Part shown: positions 6,560 to 44,712 of the stretch, in pieces
How positions within the stretch are numbered: position 1 is the first letter of the stretch
How the letters are laid out: every line of letters begins with the position of its first letter
Source: a virus
DNA length: 47,579 nt
Direction: 5' to 3' (one strand)
Virus record (IMG/VR): IMGVR_UViG_3300021964_000122
Span: 1 to 47,579 of that record
Position numbers and translations under genes: made by a program
Notes under the pieces: generated by a model
Told to the model about the DNA's origin: nothing
Databases searched by the model: none
What the model saw: the letters and a program-made list of their open reading frames with translations, nothing else

Positions 6560-7393
6560 TTATTTTGCTACTCGTCCTTCTTTGATAGCTAAATCAATTT
6601 CTTCTTCGAAACGATCATAGTCATCTAAGGACATAGCAGCAATTTCCCGTTGCGTCCAAATTTTAGCTGACTGAGGTTCGACACTTGTTGTTTTTGTCGA
6701 AACCATATCCGCAGCATTGGACTTTGAAGGTCGTGACTGTCCAGAAGACTTTCTATTAATCGCAATATTGTTTTCCATTTTATAAAGATCTATTGCACGA
6801 CTTGCTAAATTAGCATCGTCTGGGTTGTTATAAATCCACCGCTGAATTTCTTGCGGTTGAACTTTAGCCCATTCGTGAAACCGCTCATCGCCCCGAATAT
6901 CTTCAAAGTCAGGATGACGAGACTTCAACATTCCTTCAGCATCTCGCTTGCTAATTTCTAGCTCGCGTTTTTCGAATACTGATAGTTTTTGTTGAAGAGC
7001 GTTTAGCTGCTCTGCACTACGCAGATGTGCAACTGTTTCTACGGTATCATACAGATCAGGATATTGTTGTTTAAACGCTTCAAGATCTTCTGTGCTTTTA
7101 GGTGGCTGGTACTGCGGAATCGTAGCTTGAGCCATAGCTTGAAGTTCTTCTTCGCGTTGTCTAAACTCTGACAACTTCTGATCATAATGCTTTTTTAGAT
7201 CATCATACCGTTTTTTATAATTGGTACGAGGAGCCTTTTCTTTTTGAGGGGTTCCGCTATCTTCGGAAGTAGCCTCATCTGCTTCCTCAAAAAACAATGA
7301 ATCTGCACTTTGAACAGCAGGCCCATCAGGGGTATGCCAGTCCTTTTTTTGGTTGTACGGATTCGCTTGCGCTTCAAGTTGTTCTTCACTCAT
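6560..7393 (-). CDS. Capsid scaffolding protein
   Basis: A 277-residue, highly charged, mostly helical protein directly upstream of the capsid gene. It has an acidic N-terminus (FFEEADEATSEDSG), a long coiled-coil segment at residues 60-160 (YKKRYDDLKKHYDQKLSEF, EELQAMAQ, LNALQQKLSVFEKRELEIS), and an acidic/basic helical tail (YDRFEEEIDLAIKEGRVAK). This is the usual build of podovirus scaffold proteins, which shape the procapsid and leave before or during DNA packaging. AGGAG precedes the ATG. The region upstream (7394-7527) carries inverted repeats that may regulate the scaffold-capsid pair. Confidence 0.8.
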   Translation of the reverse strand: MSEEQLEAQANPYNQKKDWHTPDGPAVQSADSLFFEEADEATSEDSGTPQKEKAPRTNYKKRYDDLKKHYDQKLSEFRQREEELQAMAQATIPQYQPPKSTEDLEAFKQQYPDLYDTVETVAHLRSAEQLNALQQKLSVFEKRELEISKRDAEGMLKSRHPDFEDIRGDERFHEWAKVQPQEIQRWIYNNPDDANLASRAIDLYKMENNIAINRKSSGQSRPSKSNAADMVSTKTTSVEPQSAKIWTQREIAAMSLDDYDRFEEEIDLAIKEGRVAK

Positions 7394-7527: not shown

Positions 7528-7530
7528 TTA
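7501..7530 (-). terminator. Imperfect hairpin starting at the stop codon of the upstream gene
   Basis: TAAGG...CTAGA pairs with TCTAG...CCTTA around a 4-base loop, beginning at the TAA of the 454-codon gene. It is followed on the - strand by TTATTACAATAATAA rather than a clean T run, so it may be a weak terminator or an RNA processing site between the structural-protein gene and the scaffold gene. Confidence 0.42.
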
Positions 7531-8892
7531 TTGATTAAGTAGACTTGGCACTTTACTCGCATACATCATCTGACGATCAATATCCTTTGATTGCTGATTC
7601 GTCTGTTGATTTGGCATCGTATAATTTTCCATTAGATTTGCTTCTGGTTGATTATACATATTATCTGATGCCATGCCTCCAAGTGCTTTGCCTTTACGTC
7701 CGTTGTCATATTCGCGTTCTGCTTCGTCCATCATTTCTTGGAGTTTGTCAGCGCCAATTTGATCAACGGCCTTTTTGGTGAATACAAATTCACCATCCGA
7801 TAACCTTGCTGGTATCGAATCTGATATTCCTGATCCCGGCCCTTCAACTGTGCCAGCACCAGAAAACTCTGTTGCATTAATCATTACTTTATTTAAAATT
7901 TCTTCAAGACGATCATCGTCATCTAAAGCCTTAAATAAATATTCTTGCTCATCTTCAGTAAGCATTTCTTCTGTAATAAACTCTACATACTCTTCTTCCA
8001 TTTCATCATCTGGAAGCATATTTTTAGATTCTTCTTTTTCTTCTTTTGAACTAATGTTGTCGTAAGTATCTTTGGGTGGCTTTTCAATAGACATTTCCAT
8101 TTCTAATGGAACTAGCATAGAACCGCCTTGCTGCTTCTTAGCTCGCAGTACATTATCTTTTCCTGTTTGAAAAAGCTTCAAATAGCTTGCAAAAAAGTTT
8201 TTCAGTTCTTTTTCATCTTTAAATTTATCGCCGTGGACAGCTTTAAACAAATCAAAATCCATAGGCCTTGTAAGTGCTTGAAGACCAGCCTGACCTTCTT
8301 TTTTAACCATATCAAGTAAAAGATCTGAAACTTCTGCATACTGATCAACATCGCCAGCATAATAAGGAAGGACTCGTACTTGTTTATCTGTAAGACCAAA
8401 ATCCTTTTTAAAAATTTCTTCAACCGCCTCTGCTTTTTCTACCGCTTTGTCAAGGAAAGTATTTTTATCGGATTTATCATAAGCATCTGCTGCTTTTTTA
8501 TATTTAGTTTCTAACTCAGGACTAACTACAACATTTTTAACTATTTTAGAAATTAATGAGCCAATATTACGTTGTTGTCTTTCTACAGGATTAAGTAAAG
8601 ATAAGCCGCCTTCAGCTTTTCCCTTGCGAGTATCGTCTTCGTCTTCAATTTCGTCTTCGTCTTCGTTTTCTGTTGTTCTTCCGGGGGCAACCTTTTTGAT
8701 TTCTTTTACGGCGTCTTTAAGCTCTACGGGGCTGTTCTCTTCCCATTTTTTAACTTTGTCTTGTTGATTTACATCTAACGGTATGCCGCGTGCATAGTCA
8801 ACTAATGTTTGTGCATTCGCTGGGCTATTAGCAGTAAGACCTCTAAAAGTCCCCTCGTTTAACTCTAATCCCTTAAAATCGAATCCGCGCAT
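7528..8892 (-). CDS. Acidic structural protein with C-terminal SDSIPARLSDGEFV motif
   Basis: A 454-residue acidic, mainly helical protein between portal and scaffold. An Asp/Glu-rich stretch (residues 75-90) and a second one (285-320) are separated by predicted helices. Near residue 375 it has GPGSGISDSIPARLSDGEFV followed by a helix; this motif recurs in many phage structural proteins and is thought to mark a small domain of unknown function. The start ATG at 8892 has AGGAAG upstream and lies two bases after the previous stop. Candidate roles are a virion or assembly protein; the sequence does not distinguish them. Confidence 0.6.
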   Translation of the reverse strand: MRGFDFKGLELNEGTFRGLTANSPANAQTLVDYARGIPLDVNQQDKVKKWEENSPVELKDAVKEIKKVAPGRTTENEDEDEIEDEDDTRKGKAEGGLSLLNPVERQQRNIGSLISKIVKNVVVSPELETKYKKAADAYDKSDKNTFLDKAVEKAEAVEEIFKKDFGLTDKQVRVLPYYAGDVDQYAEVSDLLLDMVKKEGQAGLQALTRPMDFDLFKAVHGDKFKDEKELKNFFASYLKLFQTGKDNVLRAKKQQGGSMLVPLEMEMSIEKPPKDTYDNISSKEEKEESKNMLPDDEMEEEYVEFITEEMLTEDEQEYLFKALDDDDRLEEILNKVMINATEFSGAGTVEGPGSGISDSIPARLSDGEFVFTKKAVDQIGADKLQEMMDEAEREYDNGRKGKALGGMASDNMYNQPEANLMENYTMPNQQTNQQSKDIDRQMMYASKVPSLLNQ

Positions 8893-31468: not shown

Positions 31469-31735
31469 TTAATCTCCTTCGGGGAATACTGTCATTTTTA
31501 AATTAGAAATTATCCAAGACTTTGGTATCGCAAGCTCTGCATCGCCTTCTGATATTTCATTATCTTCAAGAATCATGTGAGGACAAATAATTATTTTTTC
31601 ATCGTCCTCGTGGATGATAGCGCCACAAGAAACTACTGTGGCTGTCTTCTGTTCTTTTAAATCTGATAAAGAACGCCAGCCCATGTTTGAGCCTCCAGCG
31701 GCGTCACGCCATATAACTCTATGTAGCGTTACCAC
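31469..31735 (-). CDS. Small acidic phage protein, GTG start
   Basis: An 88-residue protein (MVTLHRVIWRDAAGGSNMGW...). The pattern VxWxDA...GWxSL...VxxGxxIHEDDExIIxxPH is that of a small phage family of unknown role. The GTG at 31735 overlaps the upstream stop; a downstream ATG (31684) would cut the conserved VIWRDA part, so GTG is chosen. It lies at the end of the large virion proteins and continues the coupled run. Confidence 0.6.
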   Translation of the reverse strand: MVTLHRVIWRDAAGGSNMGWRSLSDLKEQKTATVVSCGAIIHEDDEKIIICPHMILEDNEISEGDAELAIPKSWIISNLKMTVFPEGD

Positions 31736-34587
31736 TTCGTCTTGTCAGCCCAATAAGCCGCAGACATTTTGCCCTTCTTGATGTTACGTCTGTGACGGGC
31801 TTTGAAGCTCTTGCGCTTGGCCTTCATACGCGCTGACTCACCCGCCTTGGGCTTACCAGCAGTCTTCGCGCCTTGCTCACCAAAACGAATAATCTTTTCT
31901 TTACCGTCTTCGCAGGCTTTTACGACATGAGACTTCTTAGCATGGTTAGGTGTGCGTCGAGGCTTGTTGCAGGCCATCTTGTCTTTGTCAACTCTACCGC
32001 CTTTGGCATAGCCACGAATCGTGTAGCTTTCTTCGGGCGTCATGAATCTGGCAGTTTTACTTTCAATCATTTCACGGATCTTCTTCTCTGCCTCTGCTCG
32101 CGTCTTAGCCTCTATCTCAAAGCCTAACTCATTATTAGCAAGATCCATCCTACGCCCATGCACATCTAGAATCTCACGCGCATCTGCGGCAAACTTCGCG
32201 GCTTTAGGATACTTCGCCTGTTTAGCCAGCCACCCAAGCCCAAGGTGTCTTGCAGCATCGCCGCGCCCATCTAGCTCTTCGCGCATACCATATTTACCAC
32301 CAAGACTATTGGCCCAAGCTAAATCTTCTTTAGAGATTCCTAAGACTTTAGCGACTTTCTGCTGGGGATTTATTTTTTGGAGTTTCTTTTGGAAAGCCTG
32401 AATTAGACCACCAATAAAAACCTGTTCTCGTCCTTCATTTTGCAGACCAAACTCGGCTGCTTCCCCTAAATAAATTTTACTTTTAAATTGATTACCGGGA
32501 AACTTGCCAGCCGCATAGCGCAACGCACTATAAGTATCTTTTACTTTATCTTGAGGTATTTCTGAAAAGTCATAAACATCTGTAGCATAAAGCTTACCGT
32601 CTTCAACTTTTAGTGTAGCGCCCCCAACAGAAAATGCAGCCTCTTCTTGAGAAGTTATATCGCCCGTTATCATTCTTCTAATAAAGCTTTCTTCTTTTCT
32701 TTTTTCAGGACTAGACGCCTTACCGCGAATGTTACCGCCTCTATAATCTTCGTAATCAATGTGCATACGCCCAGAAGCAATAGCATTTTTTGCAGCCGTT
32801 CTAATTTCATCTACCACCGCAGTATCATAATCCTCTGCTGTTTTATCACCGCCAAAAGGATTTAGAAAGCTACCAAGATTAGAGAAGACTTGATTTTTTT
32901 CAACAGGCTCTTTAATTCTTAAAGACTCTCCAGCTACAATCTTGTTAGGGTCTTCGATTTTATTAAATCTTTGTAGATCTTCTACGCTCACGCCAGTTTC
33001 TTTTGCAATACGAGCAAGGGTGTCTCCCTGCTGAATAGTGCGCCTAGTATCTTCTTGTTTTATTTCTTGATTTCTTTCAAAGAACTTTCTGGCAAATGAA
33101 ATAATACCTCCGTCATTTGCACCAAAACGAGGATCTTCTGGATCAAAGCGTTGAGCAAACACAGACTTGTATTGTTCTGGTCTAAAAAGAATATAGGAGT
33201 ATGCTTCCTCTCCACGATATGAAGGCTCATAGTTGTTGATGTATTTTATAGAATCAAAACCATAAGACTCGATCCATTTTGAAATCTTTTTGTTAAGCAT
33301 TGCTTCTTCAGCATTCAGCATACTTTCTGATAGGAAATCAAACTTAGCGAACTTCGCTTTTCGAATAGCGTCAGCAGCATCTTCTAGCTCAAAAAAATCT
33401 GGGGTTTGTAAAATATCCTCAATATCCAAACCAGTTTGATCTGAAATAGCCTGTGCAATTTTTACACTCATGCTTCTACTATCAACAATATTTAGTGGCT
33501 GTGCGTCTAATAGTTCAGAACCAACCCAAGGGCCATCATTAGCTCCTAAGTCCAAAGGATTTTTTACGTTTATGTATCCCTTCTGAACAACAACAGGGCT
33601 GGTTTTTAGTTGACTTGCTGCGGCCAGTACAGCACCTCTCTGCTCTGGTGTTGTCTCAGGCATACTATTCCAAATAGAATCTTCATCCATCCCAGACTTT
33701 AGCTTTGTAATATACTCATCAAACAAAGTATAAATTTTTAAAACATCTTCTTTGTCTACAACTTTATTTACAACCCTGTCTTTAGTATCACCCGCCGTTC
33801 TTTTGATCCCTGTTTCAGCAATGTTAGAAACAATGTCGGCCTTGGCTCCCTCGCCAAATAATTTTGCGGTTGCTAAAAAGTTAGCTTGGCCTTCTGTGCC
33901 TGCATGGACTCCAATTTCGTTAGGATTAAAAAACCTTGTATCAAATTCAAAATCAGCCCCACTGCCCACAGCCCTAAAAATAGGATTAGTTTCCTGAGAA
34001 CCAGAAAGAAATTTTTCTAGAGCCACATCTCTATTTTCAATCGCAGCAATTTCCTGCTCAATCCCTAGCTTTTGTGGTGGAGCCTCTTCAAATAAACTGC
34101 TATACTTTTTATTTGCTTTTAAACTTTTGACTGTCTGCTCTGCAACACCCTGCTTGGCCTCTTCTGTAATAAGTTGCGAACCGGGGCCACGACCAACACG
34201 ACCTTTATAATACTCTACAAAAATATTATCGCTGTCGGCTAACTCTACATCTTTTGCTTTATCATCCGCAAGCTTGTAATAATTTAAATTATGATATGCC
34301 GCAGCTAATGGACTATCACTAGCGTTAAACAAAGTATTTTCAAAGTCTAAAAATATTGCATCATCAGGATCAATAAACATATCTGATTCAAATTTATCGC
34401 CTTCATTATCAATCATTGCCTTGCCCATACGAACAAGATATTCTTGACTGTCAGCATCGTCTAAAAGATGCTTTTCAACAACAGTATTTACTGGCTCCTC
34501 CAAAAGATTAGCAAGCTTGCTAGAGTCAAAAAGATCTCCGCTTTGCTTTGCCATGTGGCGAGCAAGTGCTGTAGCAATAAAATTCAT
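31729..34587 (-). CDS. Large virion protein with ADP-ribosyltransferase-like, LysM and C-terminal basic modules
   Basis: A 952-residue multi-domain protein, likely ejected. Residues 200-480 look like an ADP-ribosyltransferase of the polyvalent-protein type: NEIGVHAGTEGQANF (His for NAD), VQKGYINVKNPLDLG, and WIESYGFDSIKYINNYE then YSYILFRPEQYKSV. A LysM domain (TIQQGDTLARIAKETGV, residues about 516-560) should bind peptidoglycan. Residues 775-825 hold DAARHLGLGW and RMDLANNELG, like the DUF6973-type motif. The end (KSHVVKACEDGKEKIIRFG, SFKARHRRNIKKGKMSAAYW) is a basic module found in many phages. The ART call is from memory of motifs and needs a profile search. Confidence 0.7.
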   Translation of the reverse strand: MNFIATALARHMAKQSGDLFDSSKLANLLEEPVNTVVEKHLLDDADSQEYLVRMGKAMIDNEGDKFESDMFIDPDDAIFLDFENTLFNASDSPLAAAYHNLNYYKLADDKAKDVELADSDNIFVEYYKGRVGRGPGSQLITEEAKQGVAEQTVKSLKANKKYSSLFEEAPPQKLGIEQEIAAIENRDVALEKFLSGSQETNPIFRAVGSGADFEFDTRFFNPNEIGVHAGTEGQANFLATAKLFGEGAKADIVSNIAETGIKRTAGDTKDRVVNKVVDKEDVLKIYTLFDEYITKLKSGMDEDSIWNSMPETTPEQRGAVLAAASQLKTSPVVVQKGYINVKNPLDLGANDGPWVGSELLDAQPLNIVDSRSMSVKIAQAISDQTGLDIEDILQTPDFFELEDAADAIRKAKFAKFDFLSESMLNAEEAMLNKKISKWIESYGFDSIKYINNYEPSYRGEEAYSYILFRPEQYKSVFAQRFDPEDPRFGANDGGIISFARKFFERNQEIKQEDTRRTIQQGDTLARIAKETGVSVEDLQRFNKIEDPNKIVAGESLRIKEPVEKNQVFSNLGSFLNPFGGDKTAEDYDTAVVDEIRTAAKNAIASGRMHIDYEDYRGGNIRGKASSPEKRKEESFIRRMITGDITSQEEAAFSVGGATLKVEDGKLYATDVYDFSEIPQDKVKDTYSALRYAAGKFPGNQFKSKIYLGEAAEFGLQNEGREQVFIGGLIQAFQKKLQKINPQQKVAKVLGISKEDLAWANSLGGKYGMREELDGRGDAARHLGLGWLAKQAKYPKAAKFAADAREILDVHGRRMDLANNELGFEIEAKTRAEAEKKIREMIESKTARFMTPEESYTIRGYAKGGRVDKDKMACNKPRRTPNHAKKSHVVKACEDGKEKIIRFGEQGAKTAGKPKAGESARMKAKRKSFKARHRRNIKKGKMSAAYWADKTKW

Positions 34588-37500
34588 TATGTAATCCTCG
34601 CCAAAAGACTTCGTTCTTCTTCATCTTGAAAAGCTGTGCCAGCCTGTTCATCATAAGGAAGCCCTGTCATTTTATCTACACGCTCATCAGGTTCTTTAGG
34701 TGCTTGGGGTACAGAGACTTCCCCACCCTTTGCAAAATTAGCCTTTTTAGTTTTTGGAACCACGGCCTCCTTTATTGCTGTGTCTATATCACCCAAAGTT
34801 TCACGATACTCTGTCATAGTTTCTTTGCCCAATACAGGCTGACCTAAGCCATAAAAAGGTACTTTAGTGCCAAGCGTTCTCAAAGGCTTTCTATATCCAA
34901 ATATCGCAGCAGTATCACTTACTGTAGGCCCAAACATACCAACAGCAAGGCCGGGAGTCCCTAGATATTCAACATTATTTTTTGCTCTATAGATTTGATC
35001 TGCAATAATTCCATTACCGCCCCATCGGGCTAACGACTCATATCCAATCTGAATTGGATCTTTATCTTCAAAACCCTCGCCACGAGTTCTTGCGTAGTTG
35101 GTGGCCCCTGCCACAGCAGTCATAAGCAGCGCAGTAGGTACTAATTTTTCAGCCGCCATTTCTTTATCACGCACAAAGCGCTTTGCCCCACGCTTTAAAA
35201 TGTTATTAGAGAAAGCTGTGGGATAGCCCATAAGCTGATAAGCAAGACTGCCTAGAGGTGTATTATGTGCGCGAGGCTTGAGGCCCGACATTCTTGTAGG
35301 TTGTAGAATAATTTGGTTTGTGTAACGAGCAGCGCCCTGTAGTAGTTCAGTATAGAAAGGATCGTTCCTGCTCTTTCCAGCCGCTGACCATGCCTTTGCT
35401 TTTTCAACATCAATACCAAACTCAGCAAGGTCATCAAGTTTACTTTGCATTCTTCGCGTCATAGGAGCAGCACCATGAGCCGCCACCTCATCTATTGTTT
35501 TTGCAAGGTATCGCTTACCAGTTTGAAACGAAACATTCTGAACAAACTTTGTCCACTGGTCTAGCATAGTAACTCTAAAAAATTTATTGCTGGCTTTTTG
35601 CATTGTACCTTCAACCATATCACCAGCAAGGCGATCAGCCATAGACTCTAGTTGCTGTTCCATAATCAAGCCAAACTGCTGCATTTCATGCCATGCTTCT
35701 TCTGGCGTAAGACCAAAATCATCAATAAGTTTTTTGTGGGAGTCTTCTGTAATTGTTTTTATACCTGTTTTATGGGCATTTAGGAAACGATCTACGTCTG
35801 CTTTTGCTTTAGCATTAGAGATATTCCAAGCTGCTTTAAAGCCATCTATAGTTGAGCCTCCTGCAACACCAAAGTTCAGCAGAATCTCTGTTAAACTAGA
35901 TACTGTTGCCAAAGGAAGCAGGGCCATTCTTTGAGCAAGCTGAATACCTTGATTAATTTGTCCCGCACCTCCAACACCTTCTCCAGTGAGGTTGGCGTAC
36001 AAGTCTCTAAAGCGTTTTAAATCTTTATCACTTAAAGAAGCGCCACCTGACTGTGCTTCTCTGCGAATTTGATTTATCCATTTTGATTCAAATTCTTGTG
36101 CGTTTCTAACTCCAAAAACTCTTTTCTTAGCAAGCGCCATGCCTGCCTGAGTCATGTAATTAAAAAATGTTTGTTGAACATCATTGTTTAAAAACTCTTC
36201 AAACATTGCATCGTCAGTGATATTTTTAAATGTTCGATTAGAACTAAAGAAATAATCACGAGAGCCGCTGTACATTTGGTTATTTTTATCCAACATACCG
36301 CCAATACCGTTTAGCTCTGGGCCATCAATAATCTTCATGGCTGAAGCTAAGTCTTTAGCTTCTCCAGACTCAACAAGAAGCTGGGCAAATCTTTCTTTAT
36401 TGTTTTCAATTGCAGAGCGTTTCCACTGTCGAGGTACATAATTCTCAATAGGTGTAGAAATAAATCCCTCGCGCTGAAGAAGCTCTCCTGCAACCTGATA
36501 AACTTTTTTAATGTTCATTGCTGTATGGTTTACAGCTTTACTATATTTTTGACCTGATGATCCTTGACCACGCAGCGCAAGAGAAAGCGCATCATTGATC
36601 TCATCTTCCAAGCCAACATTAAAGCGGTTGTTTGCAATAGGCAGAATAGCTTTTATATATTCTTCAAAAAAAGAACCAGTAATATTTCTCTGGGCTTCAG
36701 CAAAATCTTCTTGAACTGTCCTTTGACCACCTGTTAGCCGCCACTCTAAGGCAAACTCATTGCTGGTTTTTTCCTGTAAAAGTTTTGCAGTAGGAGATAT
36801 TTCAGTATAAGGCGACAAAAACCCTCCTGCCTTTCCGAACATCTGACTAGATGTAAAAGTGCTTAGGCCTTTGTGTAAACGAAACAATAAATCACTTTGA
36901 ATTACTTTTTGTTCTTTTCCAGAATGGGCCGCTGCAAGTGCTGCGTCTACCATAGCCTCGTAAGTTTCTTGTCCACCACCAACACGGCGTACAAGCTCCT
37001 CTAAGCCCTCTACAGCAAGGACATCTTCTGGTTGTAGATCAGTACCCTTTTCTGAAATTATCCCATCTAGGTCGTCTACAAGACCTCCTAGAAGCTCTTC
37101 CATGCCCCTTCTAAATTCTTCTTCGGGATCAGGAAAAACCTCATCAATATCATTTATTGTACCGTCTAGAATTTTTAGCATTTCTTGACGCAGGAACTCT
37201 TCATCTGAAAGTTCTGCAACTTCATCAATAGAGTTTACAGCCACCGTTGTTGGGCCAGTTTCAAAGTCAAGCGTCAACTGAACAGGTTGTTCTGTAGTAG
37301 GTGGATCAATATCTAAATCTTCAACTTGTCTTTTAGTGCCAAGCTTTGAAATACCTTTACCTAAACCATAACCAAACAGGCCACTGATGACAGTAGCTGA
37401 AGCAGTTTGTAGTGGATCAAAGTCTTCTCTAACCCCTATCTCAAGTTCTAGATTTTGAAGGGCTAAATCAGAAGCACCGCCATAGCCTGCACTATAAGTA

Positions 37501-38174
37501 CCTAGACCTGTCGGAGATTTTAAAAATTTAGATGTTGCCTCTGCCGCATCTCCAACGCTTTCCGCAATTGGTTTAGCTTTTGTAGCAAGTTTAAGTGCCT
37601 GTGCCGCTGCTTTAGAACTCGCGGCTCTTGCACCCAACGCAGCTAGTGCTCCTGTACCGCCACTAGCAGCACCACCCACAAGGGCCGCACCAGCATATGC
37701 AGCGTTTTCGTAATTAAAAAGTATATCAGTTCCATAGTCTTTAATTCTATTCAGTTGTTCACCCAAACCATAAACTTCGGAACGATCAAAGTTTTGTCGT
37801 AACTCTTGATATGCCTGCTTAACTTCTTCAGGCGCATCCTTTAAAGCCATTGCTTTATTAATAGTAGAAAAAATACGGGCTTGATCATCTCGCAAAAATT
37901 CTACAGGATCATTGTCTGATCTGTTTATAGCTAGATCTAAAGAATTTAAAAAGCTAGAATTACCAGACAAATAATCCATGACAGTTTCAAAATTTTTAAT
38001 TGTCGTTGGATCACTCCTAAAATCAGTAACGGTATAGTCTGGGCGATCCCCCTCTATCCTAAGATTCCCAGAAGAAGGCAAAGCAAAACTGTACTGCTCT
38101 TTTTGCGTTTCTTCTTTTTGAATTGGAGACTCTAAGCTTTTGTAATAGTCTTCGTATGTTTTTGACTTATACAT
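34587..38174 (-). CDS. Very large internal virion (ejected) protein
   Basis: A 1195-residue protein, mostly helical, with a Gly/Ala-rich stretch at about 160-190 (AYAGAALVGGAASGGTGAL) and another hydrophobic piece (MALLPLATVSSLTEILL). T7-like phages carry proteins of this size inside the capsid (gp15/gp16), ejected into the cell envelope to form a DNA channel. It lies between two other large virion genes and is joined to both by TAATG-type overlaps. I see no lytic transglycosylase motif, unlike T7 gp16; the LysM domain of the next protein may serve wall binding. The role is inferred from size, composition and place. Confidence 0.68.
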   Translation of the reverse strand: MYKSKTYEDYYKSLESPIQKEETQKEQYSFALPSSGNLRIEGDRPDYTVTDFRSDPTTIKNFETVMDYLSGNSSFLNSLDLAINRSDNDPVEFLRDDQARIFSTINKAMALKDAPEEVKQAYQELRQNFDRSEVYGLGEQLNRIKDYGTDILFNYENAAYAGAALVGGAASGGTGALAALGARAASSKAAAQALKLATKAKPIAESVGDAAEATSKFLKSPTGLGTYSAGYGGASDLALQNLELEIGVREDFDPLQTASATVISGLFGYGLGKGISKLGTKRQVEDLDIDPPTTEQPVQLTLDFETGPTTVAVNSIDEVAELSDEEFLRQEMLKILDGTINDIDEVFPDPEEEFRRGMEELLGGLVDDLDGIISEKGTDLQPEDVLAVEGLEELVRRVGGGQETYEAMVDAALAAAHSGKEQKVIQSDLLFRLHKGLSTFTSSQMFGKAGGFLSPYTEISPTAKLLQEKTSNEFALEWRLTGGQRTVQEDFAEAQRNITGSFFEEYIKAILPIANNRFNVGLEDEINDALSLALRGQGSSGQKYSKAVNHTAMNIKKVYQVAGELLQREGFISTPIENYVPRQWKRSAIENNKERFAQLLVESGEAKDLASAMKIIDGPELNGIGGMLDKNNQMYSGSRDYFFSSNRTFKNITDDAMFEEFLNNDVQQTFFNYMTQAGMALAKKRVFGVRNAQEFESKWINQIRREAQSGGASLSDKDLKRFRDLYANLTGEGVGGAGQINQGIQLAQRMALLPLATVSSLTEILLNFGVAGGSTIDGFKAAWNISNAKAKADVDRFLNAHKTGIKTITEDSHKKLIDDFGLTPEEAWHEMQQFGLIMEQQLESMADRLAGDMVEGTMQKASNKFFRVTMLDQWTKFVQNVSFQTGKRYLAKTIDEVAAHGAAPMTRRMQSKLDDLAEFGIDVEKAKAWSAAGKSRNDPFYTELLQGAARYTNQIILQPTRMSGLKPRAHNTPLGSLAYQLMGYPTAFSNNILKRGAKRFVRDKEMAAEKLVPTALLMTAVAGATNYARTRGEGFEDKDPIQIGYESLARWGGNGIIADQIYRAKNNVEYLGTPGLAVGMFGPTVSDTAAIFGYRKPLRTLGTKVPFYGLGQPVLGKETMTEYRETLGDIDTAIKEAVVPKTKKANFAKGGEVSVPQAPKEPDERVDKMTGLPYDEQAGTAFQDEEERSLLARIT

Positions 38175-39814
38175 TAATTAACCCTTTCAAAAGTGCCTCT
38201 GGGAACCATATTCTCATATGTGTATGCTTTTTCATTTACGCGAGTAAATTCTTCTAATGTTAGCGAGGGGTTTGTTATTCGTGCAGCTTTAAACGCAGCC
38301 TTTAAATCAGCGTTTGTTTTTGCTTGCGTTAGTTTGTCATAAACACTACCGCCTTGCGGATATTCAAGATCATTAAAAAGATCATGCTTGTTTGCAAATT
38401 CTCTTAACTCTTCTATCCTTCTAGGAGTAGTTGTGTCTGGAAGATTTGATATATATGTATCTATTCTATCTAAAGCAACTCTAGCAACAGATCTTGGAAC
38501 ATCGTCTACATCTCCACCATATTCTTCTACAATAGCAGGCCAAGTAAGAAAGGGATTATCGCCTAGCTCTTTTCCAGTTTTAACAAAATCGGCTCTACCA
38601 TTTCTTTCAAAATCCATCGCAACTGCACGAGCAGCGATAGAGCGCCTTCGCGTTTCAGAAAATCCAACAGCTTCATAGGCGCTGGATATTTTTTCTTCTG
38701 TTTGCGCGATAGCGGTTGCCATGTTTTTTCGATTTGCTTTTTTTACGGCATCACTAGCGCCTTCTGGCATAACCATTGCATCATCAATCTTTCCTCTTAG
38801 CTCTTCATCTATTGACTGATAAGTGCTAATAAAATAGTCTTCTGCTTGAGTAGAACTCATCCTAGTTGAAAACCTACTCAAAGATTCTTCAGAGATAAGA
38901 CCAGATGATTTGAGATCTACAATTTCATAAGGACTACCATCAGGCGATTTAGTAATTAAAAAGTCTTGCCTGTTTCCATCACCGTTTATGTCTAAACTTT
39001 TTATTTCTGTATTTAAAGCCAAGCTTCTAATCTTATCTTTATTTTCTTCTAAGTATTTAGAAACAACAGATGCCGATAGAGCACTTCCAGTTTCTGAATA
39101 TGTCTTATCAAAATTATTTCTATACTCTTCTGAAACTTGATAAAGCCTATTTGACGTTGCGCTGTTATACAAGGCATTATCATAATCTTCATCATCACGA
39201 TTTCTAAAAACTGTTGTAGCTCTGCGAGCAAGCTGTGCCAACAGGCCTTGATCTGCCGCTGCGTTTTTACGAACTTCATTATAATAAGCAAGCGGATCTC
39301 CACCAGAGGCTTGATTAACTTTTCTGGCTGATGCTACACGAGCATTAAAACTTTTTTCATAATCATCAATTGCATTATCTGCCAACTCCCTAGATATTTG
39401 TTCTAGGTGTGCAGGGCTTTTTAGTGATGCTTCGCCCCCAAGCTGTGTAGTAAGTTGTGCTTTATTTCTTTGTACTAGCTCATCGTATAAGTAACCGCGT
39501 ACTCCAGCAGCGTGCTGCTTGCCTGCCCTTTCAAGTTCTAAAACCCTATTAGAATCTTCGACAGAAGCTTTATAGATAGCCCGCCTACTGAGTTCTGAGC
39601 TTTTATTCATATGCTCATTTAGTTTTTGATCCATTGAGCTTCGCATATAATCGCCAACAAAATGTCCAGCAAGACGAGCGCCAACAAACTTTAAAATATC
39701 TTTATTGCTGGGGCCACTACGCCGCTGTCTATTTTGCCGTGCATTAGAAAGCAGGGACTGCCCTAAGCTTTCAACAGATTGATTTGGATTAAAAATGTCG
39801 TCAAATTCTGCCAT
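38174..39814 (-). CDS. Internal virion (ejected) protein
   Basis: A 546-residue helical protein starting MAEFDDIFNPNQSVESLG at an ATG with AAGGTG eight bases upstream; the TTG two codons earlier overlaps the stop of the previous gene. It is rich in Ala, Asn, Arg, Ser, with coiled-coil-like segments (LNEHMNKSSELSRRAIYKAS, RRATTVFRNRDDEDY). Like its neighbours it has no enzyme motif. Position in the block of large virion proteins supports a role in the internal core. Family is not identified. Confidence 0.62.
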   Translation of the reverse strand: MAEFDDIFNPNQSVESLGQSLLSNARQNRQRRSGPSNKDILKFVGARLAGHFVGDYMRSSMDQKLNEHMNKSSELSRRAIYKASVEDSNRVLELERAGKQHAAGVRGYLYDELVQRNKAQLTTQLGGEASLKSPAHLEQISRELADNAIDDYEKSFNARVASARKVNQASGGDPLAYYNEVRKNAAADQGLLAQLARRATTVFRNRDDEDYDNALYNSATSNRLYQVSEEYRNNFDKTYSETGSALSASVVSKYLEENKDKIRSLALNTEIKSLDINGDGNRQDFLITKSPDGSPYEIVDLKSSGLISEESLSRFSTRMSSTQAEDYFISTYQSIDEELRGKIDDAMVMPEGASDAVKKANRKNMATAIAQTEEKISSAYEAVGFSETRRRSIAARAVAMDFERNGRADFVKTGKELGDNPFLTWPAIVEEYGGDVDDVPRSVARVALDRIDTYISNLPDTTTPRRIEELREFANKHDLFNDLEYPQGGSVYDKLTQAKTNADLKAAFKAARITNPSLTLEEFTRVNEKAYTYENMVPRGTFERVN

Positions 39815-39816
39815 TG

Positions 39817-40425
39817 TCAAACACCTTGTTGGGCCATTAAACTAGCCTGTGGATTTTCTTCTTCTACTTGTTCTTCACTTTGCTCTTGTCGTGCCATCAA
39901 ACTATCTTTCTGTTCAATCGGTAAAGACTTTAGCATTGCAACCATCTTGTCTGTAACGGCGGGGTGAGGCTTTTGATTCTGTTCAAATTGAGTTTGAAGT
40001 TTTTCTATTTTTTCTTGCTCAAAAGAAACACCTAGAATTTCTTCTTCGTCTAGGTCATCTTCTACATCATCCCTAAAGAACACAGGATCAATACCAGCAC
40101 GTTCAGCAAGAGCAAGGAACAAATAAGTTGTTGGCTCAATCAACAGCAGCATCAAGCTATAGTTCCAAGCACCTTCAAAAAACCCGCTAAACAAGGTGGT
40201 CTGCACGATTTCCATAAGAGGGAAGCCTTGCGCCATCAACGAAATAACATTAGTGTAGTTTTCGTCTTCAATTGTTTTTTCAAAAATTTGCTGAAACGCC
40301 TCATGCAAGTTTGTATAACGGGGAGGCCTATCGTGGGGCATAGGATTGTCTGGATCAACCGTCAAGGCCTGTCCCGGCATAGGGAATTTACCTTGAAGGT
40401 TAATATCTAAAATATCTTTATTCAT
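39817..40425 (-). CDS. Virion-associated protein with a hydrophobic segment
   Basis: A 202-residue protein starting MNKDILDINLQGKFPMPG; the ATG 24 bases upstream lacks a binding site. It has a short motif VDPDNPMPHDRPPRY, an amphipathic helix, a possible membrane helix (LMLLLIEPTTYLFLALAE, about residues 90-110) and an acidic, coil-forming C-terminus (DDVEDDLDEEEIL, EKIEKLQTQFEQ). It overlaps the previous gene by eight bases. The DPDNPMPHDRPPRY element recurs in structural proteins of other phages. It probably belongs to the internal core or tail; function is unproven. Confidence 0.6.
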   Translation of the reverse strand: MNKDILDINLQGKFPMPGQALTVDPDNPMPHDRPPRYTNLHEAFQQIFEKTIEDENYTNVISLMAQGFPLMEIVQTTLFSGFFEGAWNYSLMLLLIEPTTYLFLALAERAGIDPVFFRDDVEDDLDEEEILGVSFEQEKIEKLQTQFEQNQKPHPAVTDKMVAMLKSLPIEQKDSLMARQEQSEEQVEEENPQASLMAQQGV

Positions 40426-41680
40426 ATTCGTACAACATCTCCTGTGCATTTTGAGTCATTGTAGCCACCAAAGATGGGAAGCCAAAGTAATATCCCGATT
40501 TTCCAGCACTGTTTGTGTAAATTGATTTGTAGTCTTTATTCATAATTGAATCTACAAGACTAGGTGCATCAAAAGAATCTGGACGAAGCATATTAGCATA
40601 CTGCAAACCTTCAGAAGCAGGATAGATTGGAGAGGTTTGTAAGGCGCTATAGTCTACATAATCTACTCCACCTTGCGGCATATCATATTCAACATCTGAT
40701 GCTGCCATATATTGTGCTGTCTCCATTAAGGTTGTGGGCATCCCTGCTTCTGCCAAGGCTGTTTTTGCTTTATCAAAAACAGTAGCCTCTGCCGCTGTTT
40801 GAACTGTTGAGCCGCTTACTTGCTTGGCTAACTGCATGGACTGCTCTCCCGGCAAAAAGCCTTTATAGTTTTGTGCAGTGTCATACAGCGCACCTTCAAT
40901 ACTATCTGTAGGTCTTAGCAATGATGGCATTTGGAATGTACTTTCGGTTCCTCCAACATTTAATATTGCTTCATCCATACCCAAAGGAAGGTCGCCTATA
41001 GCAACTGCTTTTGAAGGTTCACCCAGACCAATAGCTTTGTTTACATCTAGTGGTTCAACACCAGCAATTGCAGTTTCACCAGTAATGGGATCATATGTAA
41101 CTTGACCGGGATCAAGCTCTAAAGCTCCAGTTCTTTGAATTCCTTCTGCAATACTTTTTTGAAGACCAAATTTATTCATGCTGGTATCAAATGTAGATTT
41201 AGAAAAGACTTGTGAAAGACTATCTCCTGCACTACTCCAAAGTTCTCCAGACTTTGAAAAAGCATCTTTAAAGTTCATGCCCGATACGTCCCAGCCAGTA
41301 ATACCTTTTACAGCATTTCCAAGTCCAGCTTTCTCAAGGGTAGCACCAACAACATTTTTAATTGTGCCTGTTACTGCTTCAGTTACTGATTTAAATGCTT
41401 GGCCTACACGAGTACCTACTTTTACAGCAGCATTAAGAAACTGCCCAGCGCCTTTTACGATGGCACCACCGACACCGCCTAGTGTCGTGCCCATCATACT
41501 TGTCGCCAGTGATCCTAGCAGTGGCATGGCGTAAGGTGCAATTAGTGCTAAACCAATCTGACCAACAATACCAATCTTGTTCATAAATTTACCGACTTTC
41601 TTAAAAACGCTTTTAACGGTCTTACCAATTTTTTTGAAGACCTTTTTTACGCCTTTAACAATCTTTGAGAAAAATCCCAT
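40418..41680 (-). CDS. Internal virion protein with cationic amphipathic N-terminus
   Basis: A 420-residue protein whose first 36 residues are a Lys-rich amphipathic helix with a 7-11-residue periodicity (KIVKGVKKVFKKIGK, TVKSVFKKVGKF) followed by a hydrophobic segment (IGLALIAPYAMPLLGSLAT). Such a start resembles membrane-active peptides and is found at the front of many ejected phage proteins. The rest is Gly/Ser/Thr-rich, with a long central AAxxG helix region and a Tyr-rich end. It lies next to the hendecad protein and probably inserts in the host membrane; this is inference. Confidence 0.62.
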   Translation of the reverse strand: MGFFSKIVKGVKKVFKKIGKTVKSVFKKVGKFMNKIGIVGQIGLALIAPYAMPLLGSLATSMMGTTLGGVGGAIVKGAGQFLNAAVKVGTRVGQAFKSVTEAVTGTIKNVVGATLEKAGLGNAVKGITGWDVSGMNFKDAFSKSGELWSSAGDSLSQVFSKSTFDTSMNKFGLQKSIAEGIQRTGALELDPGQVTYDPITGETAIAGVEPLDVNKAIGLGEPSKAVAIGDLPLGMDEAILNVGGTESTFQMPSLLRPTDSIEGALYDTAQNYKGFLPGEQSMQLAKQVSGSTVQTAAEATVFDKAKTALAEAGMPTTLMETAQYMAASDVEYDMPQGGVDYVDYSALQTSPIYPASEGLQYANMLRPDSFDAPSLVDSIMNKDYKSIYTNSAGKSGYYFGFPSLVATMTQNAQEMLYEYE

Positions 41681-41682
41681 TA

Positions 41683-44600
41683 TTAGCCTCCTAATCCTAG
41701 ACCGTCTATAAAGCTACCTAAAGAACTTAAACTATTTTTATCTGTAAAGCTTTCGTTACCAATAGCGGCAACATGCAGTTGAGTTTTTAATTGTTTATCA
41801 TTTTCATATGACTGTCTAGCATATGCTGACGCATCACGAGTAGCTAACAACTCAGACTCATATTCCATAGCCGTAAGCTGAAAGTTTTGTTGTGCATTAA
41901 GTTTGTTCATTTCATTTTGGGCCGCCGTAGTCATAAGATTAGTTTGTCTCTCATACTCAACGGCAGACTGCTCAATTTGAAATGACATATTTGCATTAAA
42001 CTCTTCTCGCTGTGCTTGAAGTGCAGCATTCTGCATATCTTTTGCAGACTCCGCTCTAATATTAGCGGCAGTAACCTGTGCGTTAGCACTGATTGATGCT
42101 GACCTTACTTGAGCCGCTGCACCAATTTCAGCAGTTTTAATTCGACCAGCCACATCTTTATCAACAGCAGTAAGCCTATTTACTTCAGACGCATTAAACT
42201 GCGACATAGTATTCAATTGAGTAGCATTGAATTGTTCTATTTGAGAAGCCATTTGAGCATTAAACTGATCAACCTGTGTTTCGTTTTGAGCGTTAAACTG
42301 CCGCGCTGCGTTTGTCATAGATTGATTAGACAATAATGTTTGTTGTTGAATCTGAGCATTTAACACTGCTGCTTGCTGTTCATTACTTAAATTTGCCATA
42401 TCCATTTGCAAAAAGGCTTGAGCATTCTGAGCCGCAAGGCGTGTACGAGTGTCAAGATTTGCAAGATCTAAAGACGCAAGCGCAGTAGCATTTTGCATAG
42501 CTGCCTGTTGCTTTGCGCTAAAGTCTGTCATCGCCATCGTTTGCATAAACTTACTGTTTGCTAAGGCTACCTGTTGTTCAGCATTAAACTTAGACATATC
42601 CATGTTGGCAGTCATAGACGCATTCTGAACCGCTCGTTGCTGATCAGCATTCAGCTGTGCAAGATTCATACTAGAAGCAATCTGTCCAGCCAAAAGGTTT
42701 GTCTGCATACGAGCATTTAGATTAGCAAGCTCTGTTTGCTGTGCGGCAGACATATTCTCTGAAGATGCCTGATTCATAGCCGTAAGATTTGCAAGCCTCA
42801 TTTGCTGATCGTTGCTTAGATTTGCCAACTCCATCTGCTGTTTAAAACCAGCATTTTTAGAAAGGAAGTCAGCCGCCGTTTGCATTTCAACAAGCCTAGC
42901 CTGATTTTCGGCAGACATATTTGCAGCATTGGTTTGGAACTCATATTGAAGATTAGCCATCTCCATTTGCTGTTCGTTACCAAGATTCTGGGCGTTCATC
43001 GCCTGCTGGTTTTGAACATTCTGAATAGACGCTTGCTGTTGATTCTGAAGGTTCTGCATTCGCGTTTGTTGTTGTTGCGCGGCAGAAGTAATCATTGCAT
43101 CTTGAGCAAACTGACTTTGCATTGCAGACATTTGCTGGGCCATTTGAGCCGTTTGAGAAGCAGCTGTTTGCTGATTAGCCGTGTTTTGTAGTCTTCGCTG
43201 TGCGTCTAAGTTAGCTGTTTGAATATTAGCTTGTTGTTCATTAGACAAATTTTGAGCAGATCGCTGTTGAAGGGCTTGAGCATTTGACTGAGCGATAGGC
43301 ATAGCACTTTGAATAATTGCATTAAACAAAGCATCACGAGCAACCGTAGAAGCACTAAGCCCCCGCTGCGCCATTCTTTGTGTCATAGCATCTACTGCTG
43401 GCCTAGCCCAAACAGGAATCTCACCATCTTCAAGGCCCGCCAGAAGTGTTTCCATTTGTGAAGACACTAGAGCTTCAGTTGGAAGAGCCGCTACAGCCGC
43501 TTTAATTTCAACGGGCTGGTCATCAATTTGAGCTTCAACGCTTTGAGGATCTTCTACAATTGTTGCTGTTAGATCTTCTGGAAGTTCTCCTACTTGAGCA
43601 AGCATTTGTGCTGCGGCACCCTTAGCCGCCGTACCTTTAACTGTACGCATCTGAGCAGCTTCATAGCCAACTGTATCAATAATTTGAGAAGCTGTTCCAT
43701 CTGTAGCAGGGGTGCCTGTAATAGCTTCCCGCTGCTGTGCTTCAGCTTCAGGGGTTTCTGCTACTTGAGCAACTTCGCCTGTAACGGGATCTACAAAAGC
43801 TTCTGAAGATAGAGCGTACTCTGCCGCAGTTCCTAAAGCCGCTTCTTCAGCTTCAAGATCTCTTTCGGCTGCTTGCGCTCTTTCAGTTAATGTAGCTTCT
43901 TCTACTTCAGCAATAGCCTCATCACTAACTTCACCTTGAGCAGCTTCTGCTTGAGGAACATCTTCTTCTGCAATAGTAGCGGCTTCATAAGTTTGAGCCT
44001 CTACTGTTTCAGGAGCGGCAGCAGTTGTAGCTTCTCCAATTGCCGCATCACCCACCATAGTAAGTCCGTCTTCTTCGGAAGCTTGTTCACCACGAGTAGT
44101 TTCCCCACCACGAGTAGTTTTTGTGCTTCCTTTTTGTGCAGCCCTTGATTTAGAAGGTGTACTGGCTGTAGGCCTACGACTAGATGTTTTTCTTTGTCGG
44201 GCTGGACTAGCCGCTTTACGTATAGCAGAAGGCGCTTTAGTTTTTTCCTGCGGTTCTTCAAATTCTTGACCTAAAGACTTATTTTCATCTTCGCCTACAG
44301 GCTTATTTTCATAACGCCTTTCTATTTCTTCTTCGCCTTCTATGCCTGCTCTGGGGGCTTCTTTTGGAGCTAAAACTTTTTCAAGATCTACTTTTGGTTG
44401 ATCTTCTTCTTGCCCATAAGGAATAACTTCTACTTTTTCTATAGTAGGGCGTTCGGGCTTAGTTGTATTAGCTATAACAGCATCAGCAGGATCATAGCGT
44501 TTTGGCTGACTTGCTGGATCTACAGGTGTTTGAGTACCGCCTGCTGGCCCCTGTGGAGTGCTTACAGGTGTCCGACTGCCATCTGGCCCGACAACATAAA

Positions 44601-44712
44601 CATTGCCGTCTTCGTCCCGCTGAATATTAGGAAGACCACCAACTTGTTTTTGAACCCTTTGTGGTTTTTTATGTCGAGCAACTTTTCTAGTTTTTTGCTT
44701 TCTAGTAGCCAT
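41683..44712 (-). CDS. 1009-residue virion protein with 45 tandem hendecads
   Basis: Residues 1-25 are basic (RKQKTRKVARHKKPQRVQK). Residues 30-420 are acidic, disordered and Pro/Ala/Glu-rich. Residues 428-478 form a conserved-looking helical module (PVWARPAVDAMTQRMAQRG, LSASTVARDALFNAIIQ). From residue 487 to 981, every 11 residues repeat (e.g. QNLQNQQQASI, ANLSNEQQAAV, FNAQMASQIEQ): 45 units without a break, Gln/Asn/Ala/Met-rich, with hydrophobic residues at positions 3, 7 and 11. This is a hendecad, expected to form a long right-handed coil or a membrane-lying amphipathic helix. GAGAGG precedes the ATG. It is next to the endolysin and precedes the other virion genes. Confidence 0.7.
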   Translation of the reverse strand: MATRKQKTRKVARHKKPQRVQKQVGGLPNIQRDEDGNVYVVGPDGSRTPVSTPQGPAGGTQTPVDPASQPKRYDPADAVIANTTKPERPTIEKVEVIPYGQEEDQPKVDLEKVLAPKEAPRAGIEGEEEIERRYENKPVGEDENKSLGQEFEEPQEKTKAPSAIRKAASPARQRKTSSRRPTASTPSKSRAAQKGSTKTTRGGETTRGEQASEEDGLTMVGDAAIGEATTAAAPETVEAQTYEAATIAEEDVPQAEAAQGEVSDEAIAEVEEATLTERAQAAERDLEAEEAALGTAAEYALSSEAFVDPVTGEVAQVAETPEAEAQQREAITGTPATDGTASQIIDTVGYEAAQMRTVKGTAAKGAAAQMLAQVGELPEDLTATIVEDPQSVEAQIDDQPVEIKAAVAALPTEALVSSQMETLLAGLEDGEIPVWARPAVDAMTQRMAQRGLSASTVARDALFNAIIQSAMPIAQSNAQALQQRSAQNLSNEQQANIQTANLDAQRRLQNTANQQTAASQTAQMAQQMSAMQSQFAQDAMITSAAQQQQTRMQNLQNQQQASIQNVQNQQAMNAQNLGNEQQMEMANLQYEFQTNAANMSAENQARLVEMQTAADFLSKNAGFKQQMELANLSNDQQMRLANLTAMNQASSENMSAAQQTELANLNARMQTNLLAGQIASSMNLAQLNADQQRAVQNASMTANMDMSKFNAEQQVALANSKFMQTMAMTDFSAKQQAAMQNATALASLDLANLDTRTRLAAQNAQAFLQMDMANLSNEQQAAVLNAQIQQQTLLSNQSMTNAARQFNAQNETQVDQFNAQMASQIEQFNATQLNTMSQFNASEVNRLTAVDKDVAGRIKTAEIGAAAQVRSASISANAQVTAANIRAESAKDMQNAALQAQREEFNANMSFQIEQSAVEYERQTNLMTTAAQNEMNKLNAQQNFQLTAMEYESELLATRDASAYARQSYENDKQLKTQLHVAAIGNESFTDKNSLSSLGSFIDGLGLGG
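41770..43254 (-). repeat. 45 tandem 33-bp (11-codon) repeats in the 1009-codon gene
   Basis: The 495 codons for residues 487-981 divide exactly into 45 units of 11 without a gap. Common letters are N at 2, hydrophobic at 3, Q at 7-8 and hydrophobic or A at 11. The repeats are divergent in DNA, so this is old duplication rather than recent copy-number growth. If one continuous helix, it would be about 74 nm long. Confidence 0.85.

Follow-up and report, generated by a model that had tools for sequence, protein, structure and literature searches.

The hendecad gene and its neighbourhood

The window analysed here, a 47,579-base viral record in which no end repeats were found, encodes terminase, portal, capsid and tail proteins, as well as a primase-helicase, a family A polymerase and a ribonucleotide reductase. 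A gene on its minus strand (44712-41683), complete with its stop, codes for a protein of 1009 amino acids, P0001, in agreement with the strand, position and length given by the initial annotation. P0001 contains a long array of 11-residue units (hendecads), and the order of genes near it is that of HMO-2011, a marine podovirus (PMC6256558). Elsewhere in the window, positions 7528-8892 (minus strand), between the portal and capsid genes, encode a protein with a tape-measure-type motif, GPGSGISDSIPARLSDGEFVF, and with matches to tape-measure PHROGs. A fibre-like open frame at positions 1-2300, also on the minus strand, contains 13-residue repeats of the TAAELNILDGVT type and runs off the left end of the record.

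The hendecad gene heads a conserved row of genes that resembles T7 genes 14, 15 and 16 in order and sizes. The genes downstream of it overlap or nearly so, and their products are 420, 210, 548, 1195 and 952 amino acids long. The 420-aa gene (40418-41680, minus strand) was found downstream in 63 of 111 loci, with a median gap of 22 bp. Its product begins with MGFFSKIVKGVKKVFKKIGKTVKSVFKKVGK; alignment revealed that the lysine-rich amphipathic segment at its start, MGFFSKIVKGVKKVFKKIGK, is conserved in the 63 loci, and weak matches to tape-measure PHROGs were also obtained. Judged from these sequence features, the protein is a possible membrane-active partner and a candidate ejection protein. 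The most constant neighbour, the 210-aa gene (39817-40449, minus strand; downstream in 100 of the 111 loci), codes for a protein of T7 gp14 size with one hydrophobic stretch, and is followed in 91 loci by a gene for at least 280 amino acids (nearly all 300-900). By position and size, the 548-aa protein (38174-39820, minus strand; sequence similarity in 4 loci only) stands where T7 gp15 does. The 1195-aa giant protein (34587-38174, minus strand), in the position of T7 gp16, is found downstream in 25 loci and matches phrog_7348, which is annotated as endolysin, with an E value of 1e-166; one of its relatives carries Phage_lysozyme, and one LPD38. The last large gene of the block (31729-34587, minus strand) encodes the 952-aa protein, in which a LysM domain was matched.

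PDB searches with profiles built for the gene with the amphipathic start and for the three main families downstream revealed no ejectosome structure, the matches being due to chance. The gp15 and gp16 assignments of the 548-aa and 1195-aa neighbours are made by order and size, with no detectable sequence relation. Read in this way, and not as homology, the row is a T7-like ejection set, with adjacent gp14-, gp15- and gp16-sized genes in order and a wall hydrolase in the last. The earlier placement of P0001 in a virion block, as a protein of no named family, holds: the block is a predicted virion and ejection block, and searches of Pfam, PHROG, NCBIfam and PDB sequences with P0001 and its relatives gave no meaningful match.

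Homologues of P0001 were found among phages of Pelagibacter, Puniceispirillum, Roseobacter, Vibrio, Aeromonas, Pseudoalteromonas, Rhizobium and Sinorhizobium (27 records) and, with at least 549 confirmed candidates, on hundreds of contigs of viral origin, many of them from IMG/VR. The family, annotated as hypothetical only, occurs in HMO-2011-type short-tailed phages, which are mostly marine and, according to the phage records, infect SAR11, SAR116 and Roseobacter hosts. Its members HMO-2011 gp25, HTVC104P gp61, CHOED_013, phiM6_25 and CRP-1 gp35 have the same head domain, arrays, C-terminal module and neighbours as P0001, but their arrays are shorter (about 21-33 units versus about 44 in P0001). 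CHOED_013 has 460 residues, and phiM6 grows on Sinorhizobium meliloti 1021. For HMO-2011 gp25, the similarity extends over the head domain, the arrays and the C-terminal module, and the downstream genes are conserved. The contigs of some relatives (L102-L111) have been assigned to MAGs of bacteria and archaea (Maricaulis, Campylobacteraceae, Sphingobacteriales and others); these are probably phage contigs binned together with their hosts or by error. In Pelagibacter phage HTVC033P (L008, 1400-3514), annotated 2OG-Fe(II) oxygenases and a putative ferrochelatase lie directly upstream of the hendecad gene.

Domain layout and the repeat array

The first of six segments of P0001, all on the minus strand, comprises residues 1-344 (43681-44712). 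By pLDDT and composition it is mostly disordered and acidic (net charge -21), residues 53-219 having an AlphaFold2 pLDDT below 50 that predicts disorder, and start-to-anchor lengths indicate that it varies in length among homologues. It is followed by a conserved, all-helical head domain (residues 345-486, 43255-43680), which contains SASTVARDALFNAI and the invariant residues P433, A436, R450, G451, S455 and P472. AlphaFold2 prediction run on residues 345-500 alone gave a pLDDT of 87.5 and a pTM of 0.81. The N-terminal half had been described as disordered and acidic; the disorder is borne out only to about residue 345, and residues 345-486 form a confidently predicted helical domain. A fold search with the head domain revealed no match at E <= 0.001 in the PDB and two matches at the same threshold in a viral library. 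Because these are 62% and 47% identical to the head domain, they look like members of the same family, and they probably belong to that of P0001.

The remaining segments contain the repeats. Variable hendecad tract 1 (residues 487-779, 42376-43254) is a two-seam tract with 24 units above the family minimum, delimited by lengths in 106 of 106 homologues and by Fourier power at 5/11 and 4/11. A middle module of fixed length, with QFNA motifs at a spacing of 11 (residues 780-829, 42226-42375), separates it from variable hendecad tract 2 (residues 830-895, 42028-42225), which has 6 units in P0001 and was recognised by its composition and by lengths that are multiples of 11. The protein ends with a conserved C-terminal module, also of fixed length, of the QSNxxWRR...WQxxRD...EN...R type (residues 896-1009, 41686-42027).

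An AlphaFold2 prediction with 50 homologues showed residues 456-986 as helix, interrupted by short breaks, and placed no strand in the array. Confidence was mostly 75-84 from residue 780 on, and pLDDT was about 40-60 across much of 528-780. The array is rich in Ala, Gln, Asn and Leu, with 1.2% Gly and no Pro, and its mean Pace-Scholtz helix propensity is 0.367. Judging from the predicted model, the lack of proline and the helix propensity, the hendecad array is very probably helical. The monomer prediction thus agrees with the helix originally proposed, throughout the array, with low confidence over much of 528-780.

The initial annotation had counted 45 unbroken units from residue 487 to 981. 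Autocorrelation of hydrophobicity over these residues peaked at lags 11, 22, 33 and 44 (0.32, 0.35, 0.36 and 0.30); the lag-11 peak is far above that of 2000 shuffles (mean 0, sd 0.045, maximum 0.14). Identical residues at lag 11 numbered 102, against 51 +/- 6.5 in shuffles (maximum 71). When a family profile, built without P0001 and its four nearest relatives, was moved along the protein, one register was best in all 44 consecutive 33-residue windows, with starts at residues 462-935, and no slip was found inside the array. Since both lag-11 signals lie far beyond shuffles and the register is the same in every profile window, we conclude that the continuous array is real. According to the family profile, its unbroken register covers about 45 units at roughly residues 470-957, so the limits had been set somewhat late: the last two units claimed could not be recognised, and about two earlier ones are present. 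A cyclic hidden Markov model decoded a single uninterrupted array, of about 18-47 units, in 22 of 23 homologues, the remaining one having one short slip.

Recent tandem duplication of DNA was considered as the source of the pattern and rejected: no tandem DNA array was found within the hendecad gene, and where a residue recurs at lag 11, its two codons coincide no more often than usage predicts. The latter result indicates that the units are old and are maintained by selection on the protein.

Array lengths were measured between conserved anchor residues. With alignment anchors, the first array had 17 lengths, from 43 to 747 residues, all of them 10 mod 11 in 106 of 106 homologues, and the second had 7 lengths, all multiples of 11, in 101 of 101. 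With alignment-free (regex) anchors, the whole-unit rule held in 77 of 82 homologues; the five exceptions are probably misplaced anchors, since alignment anchors give none. As a control, the start-to-anchor lengths of the N-terminal region of the same proteins were spread across all classes mod 11. The flanking modules were constant: Q779-N801 is 22 aa and N801-N829 is 28 aa in 110 of 110 homologues, N895-N917 is 22 aa in 92 of 92, and N917-R975 is 58 aa in 98 of 98. According to a tree built from the flanking modules, the first array changed length at least 26 times and the second 11 times, and no proline was present in 105 arrays (44,989 residues). The whole-unit changes and the proline-free arrays together indicate that helical position is strictly conserved and that length is free to vary. 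A straight helix between the P472 and R975 anchors would measure 31-138 nm across homologues.

Unit counts of the first array above the minimum cluster ten apart (4, 14, 24, 34, 54 and 64, and also 8, 18 and 28), ten hendecads being 110 residues, or 16.5 nm of helix. In homologues with 54 or 64 units above the minimum, self-identity is raised at lags of 5, 10 and 20 units. There may even be a preference for ten-unit (110-residue) steps in array length, in classes that are perhaps not independent, since an extra block is common by descent to the homologues with 34 units above the minimum.

Two hydrophobic seams

The Fourier power of hydrophobicity in P0001 was 36.6 at 5/11, 29.8 at 4/11 and 0.0 at 3/11, which is at odds with the 3.67-residue periodicity expected earlier. 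The 5/11 and 4/11 components each exceeded the 3/11 component in 97 of 97 tract-1 sequences, these being the homologues whose first tract is long enough for the test. The hydrophobic positions had been taken to be 3, 7 and 11 of the unit; they are instead 3, 11 and 9, with weaker 5 and 1, and position 7 is mostly Gln. On a helical wheel with three turns per 11 residues, they form two nearly opposite seams, position 9 with 5 and 1 on one side and positions 3 and 11 on the other, about 165-180 degrees apart in tract 1. Between them, positions 2, 7 and 8 are mostly Gln or Asn, and position 4 is mostly Ser, Gln or Asn. Charged residues in tract 1 cluster at positions 6 and 10 (about 46% and 43%) versus about 17% at 4 and 8, where acidic residues are fewer but present (12% and 9%). 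Tract 2, with Phe at position 1 and Val, Ile or Met at 9, has a raised 3/11 component and is nearer an ordinary hendecad coiled coil.

A membrane-lying amphipathic helix of the perilipin or synuclein type, as put forward in the initial annotation, needs one hydrophobic face, and hence power at 3/11; the variable array has no single hydrophobic face, and this model was rejected. A classical coiled coil with a single hendecad seam was rejected for tract 1, which has two. Two opposite seams with amide-rich faces between them argue against a helix lying on a membrane and favour helices packed next to one another in a sheet or barrel. Seams at this angle suit a flat sheet and a wide barrel equally and do not fix the number of helices; derivation of that number from the angle was dropped, about 165-180 degrees being too uncertain.

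Proposed role and relation to known systems

We consider it probable that P0001 is an ejected internal virion protein; its presence in the virion and its ejection are both likely, and proteomic evidence of a family member in virions was not found in the literature searched. Between the head domain and the C-terminal module would run a long helix, free of proline and built of whole 11-residue units; copies of this helix would pack laterally through seams 9/5/1 and 3/11 to give a sheet or, with greater probability, a barrel. The polar face of positions 4 and 8 (Gln, Ser and Asn, less charged) would line the inside, an orientation that is weakly indicated, and the face of positions 2, 6 and 10, with most of the charge, would be outside. 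After adsorption, P0001 would leave the head with the neighbouring gp14-, gp15- and gp16-like proteins and help to form a passage for DNA through the envelope. A barrel of hendecad helices serving as DNA conduit is plausible, and we give an even chance to the explanation as a whole, namely an ejected internal virion protein whose helices, assembled side by side, help to make up the envelope passage. Because a straight helix of 31-138 nm would be longer than the envelope in most members, it may fold back, or the passage may consist of only part of it.

The length of the assembly would be set by the number of units, which would account for the gain and loss of whole units only. By analogy, short-tailed phages could have a molecular ruler, an ejected modular barrel of whole hendecads in which the count of units would determine how long a self-assembled DNA conduit across the envelope becomes; we offer this tentatively, as the less probable outcome. 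If true, it would parallel the control of tail length by tape measures in long-tailed phages.

Alternatively, P0001 could be a core, scaffold or spacer inside the head, where helices bundled round the portal or DNA would serve assembly or spooling and no envelope tube would be formed. Rings of long helices at the portal before ejection are known, e.g., DEV gp72 and the phiCrAss001 cargo protein gp45 (PMC10925440), and an array of up to 138 nm requires bundling within the head. The hendecad gene, however, lies in a block after the tail and lysis genes and beside ejection-type genes, not between the portal and capsid genes, where a separate scaffold-sized gene is present (window 6560-7393). A core role before ejection is compatible with both observations; as the whole explanation we regard it as unlikely.

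More doubtful is a true tape measure, a podoviral relative or analogue of the siphophage proteins that would determine how long an ejected or extensible tail tube becomes and would be ejected as well. A variable number of 11-residue units is a described trait of some tape measures (PMC3271669), deletions in which shorten the tail (PMC5099701), and whole-unit number variation is found in the P0001 family. Runs of Phe or Trp at a spacing of 11 reach 6, and the next gene product has the weak tape-measure PHROG matches mentioned above. The tape-measure marker, however, is at least seven such residues in a row (pattern 1 of PMC3271669), and the longest run is 4 in P0001 and 6 in any homologue; P0001 itself has no family match, and the phages are short-tailed. 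We give little credence to a fibrous coiled coil on the virion exterior, a fibre or adhesin stalk built, like NadA, round a hendecad or undecad core: the Phe/Val/Ile/Met seam at positions 1 and 9 of tract 2 is closer to an ordinary hendecad coiled coil, and whole-unit changes fit a stalk, but tract 1 has two opposite seams, the array ends in a conserved, fixed-length helical module and not in a variable receptor-binding tip, and the neighbours are of ejection type. Least credible is a beta-solenoid with one coil per unit, for although the alternating hydrophobics (9, 11 and 3, 5) with conserved Asn at 2 can be read as strands with an Asn ladder, power is present at 2.2 and 2.75 residues and whole-unit indels fit solenoids too, the Ala/Gln/Asn/Leu-rich, Gly-poor and Pro-free array is all helix in the AlphaFold2 model.

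Helical length in the family varies about fourfold in whole units without exception, so helix phase is under strong selection, and array length can be altered by single duplications. Such steps suggest that the protein builds a structure of defined length, probably a passage for DNA, even though a long tail to be measured is lacking in these phages. No description of DNA delivery by HMO-2011-type phages was found in the literature searched; the family provides a natural length series for asking whether short-tailed phages measure the envelope they cross.

Returning to the ejected helical assembly, its relation to known systems can be outlined. Ejected proteins of the T7 and DEV kind take short-tailed phages across the Gram-negative host envelope (PMC8954989, PMC10925440). 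The genes that follow P0001 resemble those for T7 gp14/gp15/gp16 and DEV gp73/gp72/gp71 in order and sizes and in the giant hydrolase-type protein, whereas the hendecad protein is an extra member upstream of the gp14-like gene, and no sequence relation to the solved structures is detectable. The initial annotation knew of no described phage protein of this design, which is too strong in view of siphophage 11-residue units (PMC3271669, PMC5099701) and the hendecads of phiX174 H (PMC7354561); a described protein of the hendecad-array kind from a short-tailed phage was not found in the literature searched.

Of the designs described, the hendecad part of the phiX174 H tube comes closest to that of P0001. 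The H protein forms a 170 Å decameric tube through which DNA crosses the envelope; its lining is mainly Asn, Gln and Arg, and the tube is made of 121 residues with 3 hendecads and 11 heptads (PMC7354561). When the H hendecads (sequence in Table 1 of PMC7354561) were compared with the family profile, a single register fitted, with a score of 11.0 versus -18.9 for the next best; P was 0.0001 by shuffling and 0.023 by column permutation. In this register, Gln of H falls on family positions 4 and 8, and its Leu/Ile and Met/Ile fall on positions 11 and 3. Both proteins thus have hendecad helices in which Gln occupies two constant positions among the hydrophobic ones, a similarity of pattern and not homology, no meaningful PDB sequence match being found at E <= 1; transport of DNA across the envelope may be a role common to both. 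H, in contrast, belongs to a single-stranded DNA microvirus and has 3 hendecads, while the P0001 family has 18-47 unbroken ones in 23 decoded proteins and more in the longest homologues.

Siphophage tape-measure proteins contain variable numbers of 11-residue units (PMC3271669), and in TP901-1 deletion of tape-measure residues shortens the tail, periodicity apparently outweighing the residues of any one unit (PMC5099701). The P0001 family resembles them in its variable count of mostly helical 11-residue units and in being, as is likely, a virion protein tied to DNA delivery. It differs in its occurrence in short-tailed phages, in its two-seam Gln/Asn/Ala-rich units and in having no family match. 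Thus, the P0001 family joins hendecads like those of H with a variable unit number like that of tape measures, in short-tailed phages.
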